A stretch of 13,713 nt of DNA from Candidatus Methanophaga sp. GoMg3.2. GTDB lineage: Archaea; Halobacteriota; Syntropharchaeia; Alkanophagales; Methanospirareceae. The first letter of the stretch is position 1, and each line of letters opens with the position of its first letter. Below, in pieces: positions 232 through 13,713 of the stretch. The stretch covers positions 1-13,713 of the forward strand of contig QBUN01000390.1 of assembly GCA_013180565.1 (NCBI GenBank), given 5' to 3'. A model generated the notes under the pieces. It did no database searches. It was not told the DNA's origin and saw only the letters and a list, made by a program, of their open reading frames with translations. The translations under genes were made by a program, and so were the position numbers.

Positions 232-315
232 TGCGGGGGGAGGGATTCGAACCCACGTATCCCTACGGAACAGGATCTTAAGTCCTGCGCCTTTGTCCAG
301 CTCGGCTACCCCCGC
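232..315 (-). tRNA. tRNA-Leu (anticodon UAA)
   Basis: Read on the minus strand from 315, the sequence folds as a type II (long variable arm) tRNA of 84 nt including the discriminator A at 232. The acceptor stem is GCGGGGG (315-309) with CCCCCGC (239-233). The D arm has AGCCGAG and GGAC. The anticodon stem is CAGGA/TCCTG (287-283 and 275-271) with loop CTTAAGA, giving anticodon UAA (280-278). The T loop is TTCGAAT. One T-stem pair is a U-U mismatch, so a small irregularity remains. No intron is seen and CCA is not encoded. It reads UUA leucine codons. Confidence 0.95.
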
Positions 316-6347: not shown

Positions 6348-7503
6348 CTATTCATACTTCCGGGGGATCAGCCGCAACAGAGGTTTTATGAGTTCGCCCA
6401 GAAGAAGTAACGCCGCCGCGGCTACCAAACACAGCGCCTACTGTTCCAACGTGAGGAATCTAGATCTGTTGCGCCTTCTCCTGCGACACGCTTAATATCT
6501 CCCTCTGTACTGTAGCCGTGTCCGGTCACGTGGTAGCTGGCACCGGGGAGCACGAGCGTAGTGACGGTCATCTGGTTCATGGTTAGCGTTCCGGTCTTAT
6601 CCGAGCAGATCGCAGAGGTAGAGCCGAGGGTTTCCACAGAAGAAAGACGCTTGATTATGGCGTACTTCCTGGCCATGGCTACTGACCCCAAGGAGAGAAC
6701 AGTGGTAACGACAGCGGACAGGGCGTCTGGAATCGAGCCGACCGCCAGCGCAACACCAAGTTGGAAAAGTAAATCGAAAAAGTTGCCGCGAGCCAGGCCA
6801 ATGGCCAAAACACCTACAAATATCGCCGCTGCAATTAGCAGTATGATCCGGATAAGCTGGTTTATCTGCTTAGTGAGCGGTGTATGCATCGCTTTTGTCT
6901 CTCGCAACATCTTGGCGATATGGCCTACCTGAGTGGACATACTGGCTTCTGTTACTAGCATTTCGGCCCGGCCCCGAGTGACGTTCGTGTTCATGAACAC
7001 CATGTTAGTGCGATCGCCAAGGGGTACTTCCGGTAATGCGATGGTGTCGACGTTCTTTAGCACGGGCACGCTTTCGCCCGTTAGCGACGATTCTTCCACT
7101 TCGAGCGTGGCAACAGAAATTAGGTTAGGCGCCCATCTGTGGGGATACGATCGCCCTCACGGATGAGCACTATGTCTCCCGGAACCACCTGCGCTGCTGC
7201 TATTGAGATTAATAATCGTGGATAATGATACTGACTAGCGTCATGGCCGACAGAACAATCTGCATGAGCGAGTGATACTGGCGCAGGAACGCTTTGATAG
7301 CTGATTCTTCTTTTTGCCTCGGCAAGTTCGTTGTGCCCATATTTTTGCAGACGCTGGGCGGATTCATTAGTGCCCAATCCCGTATCGGGATCTACCTCCA
7401 GTCTGCGGGTACATTCGTCCGCGCTGAGTGTGTACCAGGCAGCGGTATCTTTCGCCGGTGCGCTTGTCGCCGGAGTTGATTCGCTGTTTGAGTTTCTGGT
7501 CAT
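6348..7503 (-). pseudogene. Degraded P-type cation-transporting ATPase
   Basis: This is a remnant of a roughly 900-aa membrane pump of the Ca2+/cation (PacL/SERCA-like) type. In order it keeps the cation-ATPase N-terminal domain (WYTLSADECTRRLE, YGHNELAEAK); a piece of TM1 in another frame (SAIKAFLRQYHSLMQIVLSA, frameshift at the T run 7311-7315); part of the actuator domain (VVPGDIVLIREGDRIPTDGRL); a frameshift near 7115; VEESSLTGESVPV; the TM3-TM4 region with the ion-site motif altered to GSIPDALSAVV; and the phosphorylation motif CSDKTGTLTMNQM. After GATDLDS the sequence jumps to the last membrane helix and C-terminus (ALLLLGELIKPLLRLIPRKYE, 6433-6348) in a different frame. Two large deletions (TM1-TM2 region; most of the P and N domains and TM5-TM9) and at least two frameshifts rule out pump activity. 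Confidence 0.93.
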
Positions 7504-7613
7504 TGCTGCTATGTTATAAATATATAGATAGTTCATATAAGTTAATAGTCTTCTTGCAATGTAACATTATCTTTATACCACAAGCTATTGAGCAATTACG
7601 CCAATAGGATCAG

Positions 7614-8403: not shown

Positions 8404-9636
8404 TTATAAATTGCCCTTAAATAAGAGGATAGTTTCTGGCCACGCTTTAGCTAGTACAGATGCAGAGATGTCTGCTTCCCCGCCGAACAATAAATTTTCC
8501 ATAGTTTGAGCTGCTGGAAGGAATGCATGTGTTGTAAGATGTCCTGCGAATTTGTCATTGAAATGGATGACATTTCCGCCAGCACGACCTATGCGTTCCT
8601 CAATATCTTTAGCAAATTGATCAGCAGGCCAAATGGCATCATCACCTCCAGATGTAATTAAAACGGGAGCTTTAATTTTCTCTACGAGAATACATGCTGC
8701 TTCAGCATCTTTTGGATACTTATAAAGTCCGCGTTCGTATGCTTCACGGAAAGCAATGGGTTTGCCAGAAGTTAACTCAGAAAACATTTTTGGAGTAACA
8801 TACATTGGTACAAAAGGTAGTGGCTTACCATTGTAACTCCATGAGCTTTTTAATTCCCCTTTCTTGGATAGTCCTTGCCAAACGTATGAACTTGGAGCAT
8901 AAGCGATAACGGCTTTAATAATTGGTTCACGTGAAGCAAATAGTAGAGCAAGTTCTCCGCCTTTAGAAAAACCAAAAATTCCTAGTCTATCAGTATTAAT
9001 CATTGGTTGTTTTTTTAAATAAGTGACCGCCAAATCAAAAAATTCAAGAGGAACTTCTATTAGCTCTTCTGGAAGAGGATCAATACCAAAGTAAGCCACG
9101 GAAAAAACAGCAAAACCTTTTGATGCTAATAATGCAGCACGAGGCTCGTTAAATTTTCCTGCAGAACCACTAATGAAAATAATTACAGGGTGTGGACCAT
9201 CTGCTTCAGGGTAAAACAGTGTGCCAATTAGTTTACCTTCATTAACAGATACACGCGCGAAATCATTTTTAGGTAGAAAACGGCGTTTTAGTTTCGCTAC
9301 TCGAGAGCCAGAATTAGATTCAAATGAGATAGTAAAACTCAGTGGTTCAATGTTCCTTTTTTCAAATATCGGGATATATCTCTTATTTGACGGTTGTCTT
9401 GGACGCATTCGAGTAAATAAACCCTCCGGATCAATGCCTTCTAATTCGACAGATGCGTTTTCATCCGTTTTTCATTCAATGTTACTATTCCATATAACGC
9501 CATCATCATCTTTGGTTTCTGCACTCAGCTTAATTGTCTCACCTTGCGTAAGGTTGGTAATGCGTATCCTAAATTCCTCATCAACCATTATATCGGTTTT
9601 AGATAGTTCAATTCTTGGTTTTGTTTCGCTATTCAT
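8404..9636 (-). pseudogene. Acyl-CoA thioesterase/BAAT-family hydrolase with one in-frame TGA
   Basis: The reading frame from ATG 9636 to the stop at 8404 is 411 codons, the full family length, broken only by TGA at 9474-9472 (codon 55). Codons 1-54 (MNSETKPRIELSKTDIMVDE onward to GVIWNSNIE) and 56-76 (KTDENASVELEGIDPEGLF) make the N-terminal beta domain of the acyl-CoA thioester hydrolase/bile acid-CoA:amino acid N-acyltransferase family. The C-terminal alpha/beta-hydrolase domain keeps its triad: Ser224 in GFSKGGE, Asp in SGGDDAIWP (332/333) and His366 in AGH. A serine nucleophile indicates thioesterase activity. Either the gene died recently by a nonsense change, or the stop is suppressed, or a shorter protein starts at ATG 9408 (334 aa), lacking most of the N-terminal domain. 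The gene is richer in A/T-ending codons than the 2.7-5.8 kb genes, suggesting acquisition from elsewhere. Confidence 0.85.
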
Positions 9637-9660
9637 CTTTCTAATTTCAGATAGTTTCTT

Positions 9661-9674
9661 TTTATATATAAATG
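9661..9674 (-). promoter_or_regulatory. TATA box for the thioesterase gene
   Basis: CATTTATATATAAA on the minus strand is centred near 9667, about 31 nt upstream of ATG 9636, predicting a leader of only about 5 nt. An intact promoter and full-length frame argue that the gene broke recently, or is still used. Confidence 0.55.
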
Positions 9675-9869
9675 ATGAGGCTACACTAGGCTACGTCATC
9701 AACTGGAAAAAATACATATTAACCCATATTATTTGATGGTTTTTAGTATGCTTCCAGAACTATTGGTCACCCATTTAGGGATAAAAAGTATAAATCCGCG
9801 TTTTCCCATGCTCATCATCACGACATTTTTAAATGTTATAAATGATTATATAGATAATATAGAGGGCGG

Positions 9870-10555
9870 ATGACTTACACAGAAGAAGAAGCAAAACAGA
9901 AAGTGGGAGAACTCGTTGCGCGGTTCCGTGCGAACATAGACGTTTACAAGAGGTCAGCGTATAAGGAAGCGCAGGTAAGATGCGAATTCATTGACCCTTT
10001 CTTTGAAGCTCTGGGCTGGGACGTGAGCAATAAGCAGGGCTTTGCGGAACAATACAAGGAGGTTGTTCTCGAAGATACAATAAAGGTCGGGAGTTCGACC
10101 CGAGTACCTGATTACGGTTTCAGAATCGGCAGCCAGCGTAAATTCTTCGTGGAAGCGAAAAAACCGGCAATAAACATAAAAGATGAAGTCAGCCCCTCAT
10201 ACCAACTGAGACGGTATGCATGGAGCGCGAAACTGCCGCTATCTATTGTTACGGACTTCGAGGAGTTCTCGGTATTCAACTGTCAGATGAAGCCCAGTCC
10301 AACGGACAAGCCCGGTATAGGTCGGATTGCATACTATACGTTTGACGAGTATCTCGACAAATTTGACGCGATCTACGACGTATTCTCAAAGGAAGCGGTG
10401 CTCAAGGGTAAAAGGGCTTGCAGGCTAAGTAAAAAAATGAGATTGGTGGATATCGAGATGATGATAAATGGTCTGAGGTTCATGAAGCTATGATTGACGC
10501 GATGTGTAGGTTAGAAAAATCTCTTAAACCTTACATTTCGAAATTAAAAATATAG
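9870..10555 (+). pseudogene. Truncated restriction enzyme: N-terminal PD-(D/E)XK nuclease plus foreign tail
   Basis: Residues 1-180 match the N-terminus of large type IIG/Eco57I-like restriction-methylation enzymes. The series is AQVRCEFIDPFFEALGWDV, then RVPDYGFRI and FFVEAKKPAINI, giving the nuclease motif PD81...E95-x-K97, then the AWSAKLPLSIVTDFEEFSVF core strand. Full enzymes are about 1000 aa with a methyltransferase and specificity domain; here coherence ends at VFSKEAVLKG (residue 180). The frame runs on to 10493, but bases after about 10430 make better protein sense in another frame ending at 10555: EIGGYRDDDKWSEVHEAMID, then RLEKSLKPYISKLKI. That resembles the end of DUF4268-type proteins. 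So a deletion seems to have joined two gene ends out of frame. Cleavage activity is unlikely to be regulated or useful. TATA-like motifs and GAGG precede ATG 9870. Confidence 0.8.
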
Positions 10556-10595
10556 ATGCTCCAATAAAAAATCCAAGCCTATCTTGACGGCATGG

Positions 10596-10661
10596 CTAGT
10601 TTTCCTCCAGGAACTCTTCAAAAACCTGCTTTATTGTTTCCATTTCTTCATCTCTAAGCGA
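10596..10661 (-). pseudogene. Short C-terminal remnant, 21 codons
   Basis: On the minus strand a 21-codon frame between TAA and TAG reads SLRDEEMETIKQVFEEFL and ends EEN-stop. The amphipathic, acidic pattern is protein-like and resembles the end of a small helical protein, but it is too short to assign. It may be the tail of a deleted gene in this decayed region. Confidence 0.25.
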
Positions 10662-10727
10662 TTAATTGCTATTTTAAAATATAGTGGGCAGTTATGTAAA
10701 AGAACTTCGTGAGCTCGGATGCGAGGC

Positions 10728-10843
10728 AAGAATGGACATGGACATATAAGGCGTGTCTCATCAGTTGCCCTCAAGTACTTCTTCGTGCCCAGTGCATTGA
10801 GTTCGGACCTTTTCGGATCCCAGAATATCTTTACATTTGACAT
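10728..10843 (-). pseudogene. 5' remnant of a thermonuclease-like (SNase-type) gene
   Basis: ATG 10843 begins MSNVKIFWDPKRSELNALGT followed by KKYLRATD. From memory this is the opening of a bacterial/archaeal family annotated as thermonuclease-like. After ATD the coherent continuation DTPYMSMSI lies in another frame, one base shifted near 10760. After that the similarity stops, so the gene is both frameshifted and truncated to its first 40 or so codons. The longer open frame down to 10631 is out-of-frame read-through (ETRLICPCPFLPRIRAHEV). Family identification rests on recall of the N-terminal wording, not on catalytic residues, which are not present. Confidence 0.45.
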
Positions 10844-10899
10844 TTTAAATCGGCTATATCCTACTTCATCGCTTTATAATTATGTTAGTTTTAATAAAG

Positions 10900-11166
10900 T
10901 TACAACTTACGATATGCTTCTCTACGATGACGGACATGATAAATGATTACAATTTTCGTTTCAGTATCCAGTTGGTAGATCACTCTGTAATCTCCAACTC
11001 TGATCCGATAATCTCGTTCGGAACCCCGAAGTTTACGGTGTTGCGACGGAAGAGGATTATCAACGAGCGATTCAACAGCCTTAATAATTCGAGGGACTTG
11101 CTGTGGATCGATATTCCGCAAATCTCGTTCTGCTGAGTTTTTCCAGTGAATCTCATAGGAGCCCAT
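10900..11166 (-). CDS. RelE/ParE-type toxin (mRNA interferase)
   Basis: The 88-aa protein has the RelE/StbE fold sequence: SYEIHWKNSAERDLRNID (strand and first helix), VPRIIKAVESLVDNP (second helix), KLRGSERDYRIRVGDYRVIY (central sheet with Arg54, Arg56 and Arg61), IVIIYHVRHRREAYRKL (C-terminal strand with Arg79, His80 and Arg81). Toxins of this type bind the ribosomal A site and cut mRNA. The basic residues of the RIRVGDYRVIY and HVRHR motifs are those expected for activity, and length is normal. The start ATG 11166 overlaps the last 14 nt of the antitoxin gene, so the two are translated together. It appears intact, the only complete toxin-antitoxin pair in this stretch. Confidence 0.93.
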   Translation of the reverse strand: MGSYEIHWKNSAERDLRNIDPQQVPRIIKAVESLVDNPLPSQHRKLRGSERDYRIRVGDYRVIYQLDTETKIVIIYHVRHRREAYRKL

Positions 11167-11371
11167 CTTGGTTCAACCGTTTCTTAAGTTCCTTGAAATC
11201 TATTATAGGCTCATCCCTACGTTCAGCGATTATTGCCAGATCGTGGAGATCCTCTAAGAGTTCTTCATACTCCCCAACTGGCAGGACTACTGCTGTCTTT
11301 TCTCCCTTCTCGTCTATAATATACCGCTCTTGAAATTTCCGTTCTCCCTTTAGTTGAACCCTCTCGCTCAT
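11153..11371 (-). CDS. Antitoxin partner of the RelE-type toxin
   Basis: The 72-aa protein opens MSERVQLKGERKFQERYII, then GEKTAVVLPVGEYEELLED, and ends in a charged helix (FKELKKRLNQDGLL). It has the build of Phd/YefM-like or related antitoxins that pair with RelE toxins: a short N-terminal DNA-binding part and a C-terminal segment that wraps the toxin. The pattern VVLPVGEYEELLEDL is common in such archaeal antitoxins. The start is fixed by GAGGTGA (11380-11374) just before ATG 11371; longer starts upstream are not used. The promoter TATA is at 11417-11426. Autorepression by the complex is expected from the family. Confidence 0.85.
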   Translation of the reverse strand: MSERVQLKGERKFQERYIIDEKGEKTAVVLPVGEYEELLEDLHDLAIIAERRDEPIIDFKELKKRLNQDGLL

Positions 11372-11416
11372 TTTCACCTCGGCATTTTCAATTATGGTAA
11401 TGTATCGTATGCTTAA

Positions 11417-11426
11417 TAAATATAAG
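11417..11426 (-). promoter_or_regulatory. TATA box of the RelE-type toxin-antitoxin operon
   Basis: CTTATATTTA on the minus strand is centred near 11421, about 50 nt before ATG 11371, predicting a leader of about 25 nt containing GAGGTGA. The 11441-11549 spacer beyond it shows nothing recognisable. Confidence 0.5.
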
Positions 11427-11549
11427 TTCATGCATAGCATCCAAAGCCTTTTAAGAAAACGTGAAGAATATCATACAATGTCAAATGAAATACAGACCCT
11501 CAGATGTATCCTGAGATAAATCTCTGTCAATTTTAAAGTTCACTACCGC

Positions 11550-11714
11550 TCAAACATAGAACCGCCTCAGCCCAAATGCGATAAACCTTTCGAAGTGCGT
11601 TCTGTTCAACGTAGACAGCATGGCATCTTGATTTATGCAAATTGCGGCAATCATTGTATCGAACCGCCCTGCCGGTTTGCAAATCTTCAAGATGTCAGTA
11701 TCTAAGACTATCAT
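11550..11714 (-). pseudogene. vapC: VapC (PIN-domain) toxin reduced to its two ends
   Basis: From ATG 11714 the frame reads MIVLDTDILKICKPAGRFDT, then MIAAICINQDAMLSTLNRTH, then FERF. The first nine residues are the PIN N-terminus with Asp5. From GRFDTMIAAI on it is the PIN C-terminal half, with Asp19 and the TLNRTHFERF segment. A normal VapC has about 130 residues, so about 75 residues including a central catalytic acid are missing. The join is in frame, giving an open 54-codon frame. It should not be a functional RNase. The gene overlaps the 3' end of the 48-codon gene upstream, typical of antitoxin-toxin order. Confidence 0.8.
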
Positions 11715-11841
11715 CGAAATCTCTCTTCTCAGCTCTTTTACTGTAAATTGCATTAAGAATTGCCTCTTTTTCTTCACTGCTTAGCACAATAATTTCTCTA
11801 ATCTTTTTAAGCACTTCGATCCCTTTCCCGCCCACAATCAT
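11695..11841 (-). CDS. Possible antitoxin (48 aa) of the degraded vapC
   Basis: The frame starts at ATG 11841 (MIVGGKGIEVLKKIREIIVL) and ends FDDSLRY at TGA 11697-11695. It is helical and charged, and its end overlaps the vapC start at 11714 by 20 nt, the usual arrangement of a VapB-type antitoxin and its toxin. It starts 9 nt after the stop of the truncated HicB frame. No clear ribosome-binding site is seen. It lacks a recognisable DNA-binding motif and may be only the C-terminal part of a longer antitoxin. Confidence 0.45.
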   Translation of the reverse strand: MIVGGKGIEVLKKIREIIVLSSEEKEAILNAIYSKRAEKRDFDDSLRY

Positions 11842-11849
11842 TTTTTCGA

Positions 11850-11960
11850 TCAAATTTCATCAATTGTTTCTCCTTGCGCATTTGCACCTGGCAACTCCTC
11901 AACAAAGGCTATCCACCATTTATCCGTCTTTTGAAAGACGGCAGTAAATCGGCTCTCCAT
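11850..11960 (-). pseudogene. hicB: Truncated HicB-type antitoxin
   Basis: From ATG 11960, with TAGGAGT 5 nt upstream, the frame reads MESRFTAVFQKTDKWWIAFV, then EELPGANAQGETIDEI, and stops at TGA. This is the N-terminal half of HicB antitoxins (strand, WIAFVEELPGANAQGET hairpin). Complete ones have about 70 residues with a following helix (ENLKEAIEL type) that is missing. No hicA toxin is nearby. A TATA-like motif (GAATATAAATAG on the plus strand, 11991-12002) lies upstream. It probably reflects loss of a HicAB locus by deletion against the vapBC-like genes. Confidence 0.75.
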
Positions 11961-12003
11961 TTTTTACTCCTAGGTATTACAAAGCTATCAGAATATAAAT
12001 AGA

Positions 12004-12214
12004 TATGCCGTGTTTGATGGTAAAGTACTGATACCCGAGGAGGCGGTTAATTTGGAGCCAAACGCGCGTTATCTCGTGGCCATCGAGCGTAAAGAGGAAA
12101 TAAGTAAGCAGAGCCTTTTGGATGGATGTACTTAGCGAGTTCTTCGGAACGGTTGAAGGGCCAAGAGATTGGTCCGAAGAGCATGACCATTATTTATATG
12201 AGCGCAAAAATTGA
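12004..12214 (+). pseudogene. AF2212-like (VapB-type) antitoxin with 4-bp duplication frameshift
   Basis: The first frame (12004-) reads YAVFDGKVLIPEEAVNLEPN, then ARYLVAIERKEE, and stops at TAG 12133-12135. The next frame carries DVLSEFFGTVEGPRDWSEEH, then DHYLYERKN-stop (12212-12214). Joined, they make the AF2212-like (DUF104) antitoxin family, which normally precedes a PIN-domain VapC. The join falls on a tandem GATG-GATG near 12120-12127; removing one copy restores the frame exactly (SLLDVLSEFF). There is no in-frame ATG before YAVFDG, so the 5' end is also lost. The gene runs divergently from the HicB remnant. Confidence 0.82.
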
Positions 12215-12315
12215 TAATAGAAAAGAGCTTAAAACGCGAAGATAGGGTGGAGCCATATATTTATATAGTGTTAAATCAAACTATTCCTAGAAGATAATAT
12301 CAAGGCGGTTAAATC

Positions 12316-12573
12316 ATGTCGATCGCAAAAAAACTCTCGCAATTACTTGAAAATATGACGCCTCAAGAGCGTGCTGAAGTCGAGACATTCGCAGCTTTTG
12401 TTATAGCACGGCGGAAATTGCATGACCTCTCTGTTCTGACCGATGACATACCCACTCAAGAACTCATGCAACTTGTCACGGAATCCGGGAGTTTCGACTG
12501 GCTAGATGCCAAAGAAGAAGGCGTCTATTCCATTGAAGATGGTGAAGCGGTAAAATGGCTCAGCGAATCGTAA
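12316..12573 (+). CDS. MazF-associated antitoxin (85 aa)
   Basis: The protein starts MSIAKKLSQLLENMTPQERA, a helical segment (EVETFAAFVIARRKL), then SVLTDDIPTQELMQLVTESG and SFDWLD, and an acidic end (EEGVYSIEDGEAVKWLSES). It is not AbrB-like MazE. The pattern of a short helical N-terminus and an acidic tail fits the DUF2281-like antitoxins found beside MazF/PemK toxins. AGGCGG precedes ATG 12316 and a TATA-like stretch is at about 12256-12268. Its last 19 nt overlap the mazF start at 12555, so the pair was an operon. The gene itself has no defect. Confidence 0.72.
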   Translation: MSIAKKLSQLLENMTPQERAEVETFAAFVIARRKLHDLSVLTDDIPTQELMQLVTESGSFDWLDAKEEGVYSIEDGEAVKWLSES

Positions 12574-12918
12574 GACGAGGTACTATAGTTCTTGTCCGCT
12601 ACCCGTTTACTGACCTGAGTAGCATAAAAGTCCGTCCAGCGGTAGTGGTTTATGCCTGACCAATTAATGCGCAAATTAGATGACGTTCTCTGCCTTTTCA
12701 TCTCCTCCTCGATGCCCGCGAAAACACTCTCGACTGATTTCGTCCTTGAACCAAATCATCCTTCCTTTCCGAAAACGGGTTTGATTTATCGCTCGGTATT
12801 TAAAACGCATAAGTTAGCGTTGCTCCATAAGTCGCTTGTGCTGCGCGTTTTAGGTGAAATGGACAGGGATTTGATGAACGAAATAGATCTGCGATTGCGT
12901 ATTGCGTTGGGGCTTTGA
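12555..12918 (+). pseudogene. mazF: MazF/PemK-type toxin with one-base frameshift
   Basis: ATG 12555 opens MAQRIVRRGTIVLVRYPFTD, then LSSIKVRPAVVVYA, the MazF N-terminus with the KVRPAVVV core, and meets TGA at 12657-12659 after 34 codons. Skipping the single T at 12657 restores DQLMRKLDDVLCLFISSSMP, then the rest of the fold (FPKTGLIYRSVFKTHKLALL, RDLMNEIDLRLRIALGL) to TGA 12916-12918. The joined product would be about 120 residues, the usual size. MazF cuts mRNA at specific sites; with the frameshift it should be inactive. The UGA followed by C resembles the context of programmed +1 shifts, but there is no visible stimulator. A sequencing error cannot be excluded. Confidence 0.85.
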
Positions 12919-12973
12919 AGTACCGTAGAAGAACCAAAAAAATGGAGACAAAAAGAAGCAGGGGGACTTCAAA

Positions 12974-13713
12974 ATGAGCGTGCTTCGAGAGAAAATATTT
13001 GAGCGAAAAGGCGAAGGAACTTTAAAACCCCAAAATACAGATTTAGGACATATAGAAATTCCTGTTACGTTTACATGTGCACAGTATCGTGATGGTGTTA
13101 TTGATGGAACGATAACCTTAATTGAAGAGGATCACGCCCCGTATATGGACTTATTTTACATTCACGAAGATACAAAATACAGCCTATGTGCATATCTCGA
13201 CGCTGAAGAGTTAAACATAGAACCGCTTAGTATTTCTAACATCTCACCGCAAATGGGTGAGCGAGTAGAATTTCGAGATATTGCTTTTATTGCTGATTAT
13301 CTAAAATTGAAACATAGAGAAATCACATCCGCCACAAATAAAATATTCTGTCGCTTTGATGTATCCAATCTTAAATCTTTTATGTCAACTTTTGAGATTG
13401 AAGAAGGAAAAGTTACCTTTTTTCAGTACGAAGACGATATATGGAAAGATATAGGAATCTACAAAAAGTCAGGTATAACGGGCGGTGTTCAGATTGAGCT
13501 AAATGACGATGTTAGACTTCAGACAATAGAAGCGTACAAATCATTACTGTTTAACAAAATCAATAAAATATTGCGGTTCGCATCGTTATCTCAGGGCACT
13601 TACATTGATTGGGCTTCCTTTGTGCTATGTGAGCAAAATAGTGAAGGTGTGTATGAACGGATATATTCAGAAAGGAAAAATATTCGAACTGAGTTCTCTG
13701 CGAGACATGAATT
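12974..13713 (+). CDS. Unidentified protein, runs off the right edge (246+ aa)
   Basis: ATG 12974 follows AGGGGGA with a spacing of about 8 nt. The frame stays open to the end of the window (246 codons). The first 170 residues look beta-rich (GEGTLKPQNTDLGHIEIPVT, GVIDGTITLIEE, ERVEFRDIAFIADYLKL). Then come IFCRFDVSNLKSF and FEIEEGKVTFFQYED, a second strand block (GVQIELNDDVRL) and, from residue about 183, helices (YKSLLFNKINKILRFASLSQ, then IDWASFVL). A beta N-terminal domain followed by a helical domain at the edge of a restriction/toxin-antitoxin region recalls defence proteins of the abortive-infection kind (for example ApeA/HEPN), but no catalytic motif is visible in what is present and I do not recognise the family. 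The base composition is AT-rich. Confidence 0.7.
   Translation, partial: MSVLREKIFERKGEGTLKPQNTDLGHIEIPVTFTCAQYRDGVIDGTITLIEEDHAPYMDLFYIHEDTKYSLCAYLDAEELNIEPLSISNISPQMGERVEFRDIAFIADYLKLKHREITSATNKIFCRFDVSNLKSFMSTFEIEEGKVTFFQYEDDIWKDIGIYKKSGITGGVQIELNDDVRLQTIEAYKSLLFNKINKILRFASLSQGTYIDWASFVLCEQNSEGVYERIYSERKNIRTEFSARHE

Follow-up and report, generated by a model that had tools for sequence, protein, structure and literature searches.

In the portions of the published reports drawn upon here, chromosomal toxin-antitoxin (TA) copies of Escherichia coli (ccdO157 and hok-sok) are described as no longer addictive after point mutations, insertions and rearrangements (PMC2654758), the genome of Haloquadratum walsbyi is described as holding many pseudogenes and deletions at short direct repeats of 4–20 bp (PMC3119063), and a survey of marine genomes counts 4386 orphan toxins against 3099 orphan antitoxins in one database (PMC12654330). 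TA decay in anaerobic methanotrophic archaea of group 1 (ANME-1) was not a topic in the titles or abstract openings among the matches listed from the openly licensed ANME-1/Methanophagales literature, and neither the word "toxin" nor "pseudogene" is present in the available main texts of PMC9894754 and PMC9012536. Here a stretch of 13,713 nucleotides from Candidatus Methanophaga sp. GoMg3.2 (contig QBUN01000390.1), referred to as the window, was analysed. Positions 10900–12918 of the window hold one intact ParE/RelE-RelB operon together with remnants of VapBC, HicBA, the antitoxin of a PIN-toxin pair and MazEF. The original prediction of a TA graveyard around one intact pair was thus confirmed, the remnants of four further TA families being matched to fuller ANME-1 copies. 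With a probability of roughly 0.78, the segment reflects ordinary pseudogene decay of an ANME-1 TA/defence region by deletions and frameshifts. The pieces run on the minus strand from RelBE through the VapC, VapB and HicB remnants and then on the plus strand from the PIN-pair antitoxin remnant through a MazE-like gene to a frameshifted MazF (relatives are given by our own handles for genomes, G, contigs, C, and loci, L):

10900..11166, minus strand: RelE/ParE-type toxin gene, 88 amino acids, intact (PF05016, TIGR02385)
11153..11371, minus strand: RelB-like antitoxin gene, intact, overlapping the toxin gene (PF18506)
11566..11732 (upper bound approximate), minus strand: VapC (PIN toxin) remnant, codons about 1–15 and 88–130 (DNA match to G017:C101)
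11687..11855, minus strand: VapB antitoxin remnant, codons 26–80, N-terminus gone (relatives' copies)
11856..11960, minus strand: HicB antitoxin remnant, first 35 codons (91–97% DNA identity to several relatives)
11961..12006, minus strand: HicB upstream region with a TATA-like stretch, common to other HicBA copies (aligned HicBA starts)
12005..12200, plus strand: antitoxin remnant of a PIN-toxin pair, codons 9–71 in two frames, start gone (relatives' copies)
12316..12573, plus strand: MazE-like antitoxin gene, 85 amino acids, full length (83.5% identity over residues 1–85 to the intact G034 copy)
12555..12918, plus strand: MazF/PemK toxin gene, frameshifted into two pieces, 12555–12659 and 12652–12918 (PF02452 on the second piece)

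The complete RelE-type operon that had been proposed was borne out by profile matches. The frame at 10900–11166(-) matched ParE_toxin PF05016 at 1.5e-14 over the full length of the profile (1–89 of 89) and RelE_StbE TIGR02385 at 28.2 bits, above the cut-off of 27.9, while 11153–11440(-) matched RelB-like PF18506 at 31.2 bits, above the cut-off of 27. The start of RelB was placed at 11371 by choice, as the open frame reaches upstream to 11440. The RelB gene lies upstream of the RelE gene with a 14-bp overlap, which is the layout of type II RelBE/ParDE operons, and 10900–11371 is accordingly a predicted RelBE/ParDE-type pair. Apart from RelE, RelB and the second MazF piece, no piece of the TA segment gave a convincing Pfam match. 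The TA families of the broken pieces were named after their intact relatives (HicA PF07927, VAPB_antitox PF02697, PIN PF01850 twice and PemK PF02452).

Each broken piece matched a fuller TA copy in ANME-1 relatives, so that the remnants of HicB, of VapC with a partner and of MazF with its antitoxin were upheld, as was the assignment of the fragments to TA genes in general. Whole-stretch E-values were at most 1e-40 for most pieces, which is far beyond chance, and each of the four broken pairs has full-length relatives in other ANME-1 genomes. Relative to the intact VapBC pair of G017 (PF02697 and PF01850), about 215 bp are missing from VapC at 11687, and toxin and antitoxin at 11566–11855 are both partial, leaving no intact pair. 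HicB matches in several relatives all stop at 11856, and no HicA was found in the window beside the 35-codon HicB remnant; the HicB proteins of relatives score below Pfam cut-offs and their HicA proteins match PF07927. The sequence at 11961–12006 is a putative HicB promoter. The two pieces of the PIN-pair antitoxin remnant, codons 9–47 and 46–71, lie in different frames, and the toxin gene of this pair was not found in the window. The intact relative is a protein of 81 amino acids whose gene sits in front of a PIN-domain gene (PF01850). The piece had been called an AF2212-like antitoxin; its reading as an antitoxin remnant held, and the name was not supported, since Pfam returned no family for the intact relative, PF01954 included.

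The MazF pieces correspond to residues 1–32 and 33–120 of the G034 protein in two frames, so that no intact toxin frame is present, and the PemK/MazF match (PF02452) at 12652–12918(+) runs from profile position 33 onward. Both G034 and G069 carry a full-length MazF. The MazE-like protein matched no known MazE family, with no Pfam or PADLOC family and just a weak, unrelated NCBIfam match, and its label reflects gene position alone. MazEF is the only pair in the window in which the toxin was lost and the antitoxin kept; the other three broken pairs lost both. Where several antitoxins had been described as open or partly open, just two, RelB and MazE, are full length in the window.

The lesions are not private to one assembly. 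Contig 52 of the nearest genome, G001 (28,048 bp), is 99.75% identical over 9500–13147 of the window with the same frames and the same lesions, which makes sequencing error unlikely. Before 7000 the two differ (79–97% identity in 500-base blocks, with gaps), and after about 7500 identity is 98.8–100%; this sharp shift at about 7000–7500 suggests recombination or mixed assembly. DNA of 10500–13713 matched 24 of 59 relatives, and blocks matching relatives repeatedly end at 11687, 11855/11856, 12005/12006 and about 12200. As these ends are common to many relatives, the breaks lie in the window relative to the fuller copies. At one junction HicB ends after 35 codons and VapB follows from codon 26; at another, HicB upstream DNA continues directly into codon 9 of the divergent PIN-pair antitoxin. 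Both junctions cut two operons each, and the losses are thus not all independent. Of the proposal that the defects differ in kind and arose independently, the several kinds of lesion stood and full independence did not. G005 shares 12157–12540, from the tail of the PIN-pair antitoxin through most of MazE, and in G002, which is of the same genus and lacks 108 bases of the window sequence (11848–11955), VapB adjoins the DNA upstream of HicB, so parts of the arrangement may predate the window strain.

Damaged and full-length TA copies coexist across the relatives. Among 53 genomes of the order, operon DNA matches were found in 14 for HicBA, 16 for VapBC, 21 for the PIN pair, 8 for MazEF and 9 for RelBE; copy numbers are lower bounds, since 10 to 12 first-pass candidates per genome were scored in these searches (5 for the window DNA and 8 for the control pair described below). 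Five different MazF lesions occur across the window, G008, G033, G071 and G005. The HicB frame is broken at codon 51/52 in G007, G004:C74 and G070:C95, and VapC, HicBA and PIN-pair copies carry other internal deletions. The RelE genes of G005 and G069 (L134, L135), genomes of two genera, lack the same 111 bp (37 codons), and the junction overlap is 16 bp. The G005 protein, at 51 amino acids, was scored as not full length, and the G069 frame also extends to the contig end; the common deletion may have been inherited from a common ancestor, transferred or formed more than once. Elsewhere in the order, comparable modules are found at other stages of decay, which makes the window site one instance of a clade-wide turnover of accessory genes.

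Overlap at deletion junctions was compared with random deletions simulated in copies at or near full length and scored by the same procedure (RelBE had no such null, and one template, the window MazEF, is itself frameshifted). The mean overlap at 13 junctions was 5.2 bp (range -7 to 16) against -1.0 bp for 707 simulated junctions (resampling P 5e-5), or 4.25 bp when the RelE deletion common to G005 and G069 was counted once. Overlap was thus in excess, as for the short-direct-repeat deletions of the Haloquadratum type, though 6 of the 13 junctions overlap by 0–2 bp.

The order of loss was investigated in 50 copies, with full length defined as 90% of the reference length in one frame and with G001:C52 entered once, as the window. 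Left out were, for HicBA, G064:C54, which is cut by its contig end, and two matches that were weak or confined to the upstream region (G011:C130, G002:C179); for VapBC, matches of at most 45 bp (G018, G026, G019, G022); for the PIN pair, distant or tiny matches in G022 (two contigs), G007:C70, G001:C25, G001:C212, G012, G002:C18, G011, G064, G023, G037 and G005, and G008:C29 at a contig edge; for MazEF, G006; and for RelBE, short matches in G008, G026, G002, G003, G004 and G066. Both genes were full length in 17 copies, the antitoxin only in 11, the toxin only in 1 and neither in 21 (17, 13, 1 and 19 at a threshold of 85%). The imbalance of 11 to 1 gave P 0.006 in a sign test and P 0.014 when the greater part of the length taken up by the toxins was allowed for. 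Counting the shared RelE deletion once left 10 to 1 (P 0.012), and kinship was otherwise ignored in the count. The copies weakly favour a pattern in which the toxin is lost first, of which the simplest account would be that losing the antitoxin first is harmful. The claim that toxins go before antitoxins therefore stood as a clade-wide bias and did not stand for the window, where MazEF alone follows it, or for HicBA, and it is confounded by gene order.

Genes other than the TA genes served as controls. At E 0.001, 49 of 53 genomes matched the RIO-kinase/DsrE pair of the window, some of them by no more than a repeat of 25–45 bp near query 976–1028. Under one uninterrupted match the kinase gene was covered to at least 85% in 36 and to at least 70% in 41 of the 53 genomes, with a gap of about 80 bases in G013 and low-identity, partial or no matches in the remainder, which indicates that conserved genes are rarely interrupted. 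A multi-copy gene of 258 amino acids often lies beside these TA copies (KDLYPAV; L123:413–1189, starting MHEKDLYP). Its product had no Pfam or PADLOC match and no match to a TA family; in our reading it would carry a nuclease-like motif. In 27 of the 53 genomes it gave at least 82 matches, 6 of them near full length, so this gene is broken more strongly than the control pair and at least as strongly as the TA genes. Of the 76 partial matches, 31 extend to the 5' end of the gene, compared with 13 that extend to its 3' end, and match depth falls from about 45–48 in the first fifth to about 9 in mid-gene. Most of what survives of the gene consists of 5' fragments of about 60–190 bp, with some copies joining both ends after a large internal loss. 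Decay is accordingly not confined to TA genes, nor the 5' bias to antitoxins.

The antitoxin gene stands first in all five reference operons and KDLYPAV likewise keeps mostly its 5' end, so gene position competes with selection as the source of the toxin-first pattern: the promoter-proximal part might be kept whether or not it encodes an antitoxin. This is a possible account that we hold to be somewhat less probable than its negation, as the depth gradient is shallower in the TA operons than in KDLYPAV and MazEF copies with a whole antitoxin gene often retain the 3' end of their toxin gene.

For the segment itself, decay by deletion and frameshift would have proceeded from several unrelated type II TA operons that came to adjoin each other. 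Deletions and small frameshifts would then have removed operon parts, at times fusing neighbouring operons, as the observed junctions show, and part of the deletions probably took place between short repeats, judging from the overlap statistics in relatives. The outcome is an intact RelBE, a MazEF without a toxin frame but with its antitoxin kept, and dead VapBC, HicBA and PIN pairs. A number of observations count against this account or parts of it. MazF deletions in G071, G005 and G033 (L124–L127) have almost coincident right ends (query 481–484) and differing left ends, which would not be expected of random deletion. The six junctions at 0–2 bp mean that the overlap signal comes from about half of the junctions; the VapC junction of the window overlaps by 1 bp, and one junction has a 7-bp insert. 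HicBA is without a toxin-first trend (1 antitoxin only, 1 toxin only, n=14), and the preferential keeping of the 5' part extends to KDLYPAV, a gene without a TA family match. For the coming together of the operons no mobile source emerged: window 9800–13713 gave no match in the plasmid collection, and scans of viral_contigs with MazF, the 258-amino-acid protein and the PIN toxin, which covered close relatives only and not phages or metagenome contigs, returned no relative.

Movement of the TA genes as integron-like units with defined ends, which would make the array a damaged cassette array, draws on HicBA copies of 85–98% identity whose common 5' edge lies some 50 bp upstream of the start codon and which, in several cases, are preceded by unrelated DNA. 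We consider it unlikely. The edges of the PIN-pair copies, tried as unit ends, were rejected because direct alignment shows them fading rather than sharp. An integron cassette array was not supported either: the integron integrase model gave nothing over cut-off in any of 53 genomes (the window's own assembly not among them; attC sites were not searched), and weaker integrase matches lack model positions of about 180–230 in their best rows and occur in 14 of 14 control genomes too. Still less credible, to the point of being very improbable, is that junctions and frameshifts arose during metagenome assembly of related strains. The titled records among the relatives are indeed metagenome or other draft assemblies, and two contigs of G001 end inside the gene at 12974. 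Nevertheless, the lesions recur in G001 contig 52, which differs elsewhere by gaps and about 3–21% in 500-base blocks before 7000, G005 and G002 share the antitoxin-tail/MazE arrangement and the VapB/HicB-upstream neighbourhood, respectively, and the control pair is rarely interrupted.

In G004:C111 (L035:3783–4031), about 46–50 HicB codons are fused in frame to the tail of an AF2212-type antitoxin, the tail being identical to L047:4501–4710 at 27 of 35 residues. It is a speculative and rather improbable proposition that joining of adjacent ANME-1 TA operons by deletion is a source of new antitoxins or hybrid regulators, promoter-bearing fragments being fused to other antitoxins and not left as debris alone.

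The surroundings of the segment include defence genes. To its right lies one further gene:

12974..13713, plus strand: gene of about 454 amino acids in relatives, start only, running off the window (no Pfam or PADLOC match)

This gene adjoins TA remnants or the nreA/Fic region in G002, G005 and G001:C63. TA genes or their remnants lie near nreA in G002, G004 and G005, all of the window's genus, and the nreA region of G002 and G005 also holds a Fic gene and the 454-amino-acid gene. PADLOC assigns to defence families the Fic protein and a type IIG restriction-like fragment at 9870–10493, which resembles the N-terminal 207 residues of a type IIG restriction enzyme-methyltransferase of about 1000 amino acids (HSDR_N; PADLOC positions 5–183 of 1011). 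Pieces of this sequence were also seen beside HicB remnants in G017 and G025. The TA mix near nreA differs among G002, G004 and G005, and this speaks for turnover within a defence region. The left flank of the window differs from the nreA site and the right flank lies beyond the window, so that identity of the locus is not claimed. Of the suggested turnover hotspot, a changing TA/defence mix in relatives was supported.

Elsewhere in the window, a P-type ATPase gene at 6422–7536 is apparently broken into two open frames (6422–7099 and 7120–7536), and about 266 bp of it (6931–7197) are absent from G001 contig 52. A BAAT-type acyl-CoA thioester hydrolase has its C-terminal part at 8404–9408 and a separate N-terminal piece at 9472–9636, possibly a split gene. 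A short dispersed repeat of about 25–70 bp (2547–2707 and 119–146) has many occurrences in ANME-1 genomes. The DsrE-like protein is 93% identical to the record WSZT01000182.1 (Methanophagales archaeon GLR107) and 96% to the ANME-1 record AG-394-G06, and the sole Rfam match at gathering thresholds is a tRNA at 232–315 (-) (RF00005).

The segment is a fast-changing defence region with well-resolved gene decay and a fresh example of an already known process. Its value lies in a readable series of TA decay states from an uncultured archaeal order, in which the order of loss becomes testable and a gene-order confound is exposed that single-locus readings overlook. For annotation, it is also a warning that a short TA "orphan" in an ANME-1 genome may have arisen by deletion; otherwise, the case is one of ordinary genome decay. 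As far as the available parts of the reports extend, it resembles E. coli (PMC2654758) in that chromosomal TA copies decay, but has five type II families within 2 kb of an uncultured archaeon and operon-to-operon junctions. In H. walsbyi (PMC3119063), as here, an archaeal genome decays through deletions linked to short direct repeats; the word "toxin" is absent from the available text of that report, whereas the ANME-1 deletions strike TA genes and have shorter overlaps on average. The marine survey (PMC12654330) likewise reports many TA partners without their other half, but toxin orphans are commoner there, while among the ANME-1 copies, measured on known pairs, antitoxin-only copies outnumber toxin-only ones.

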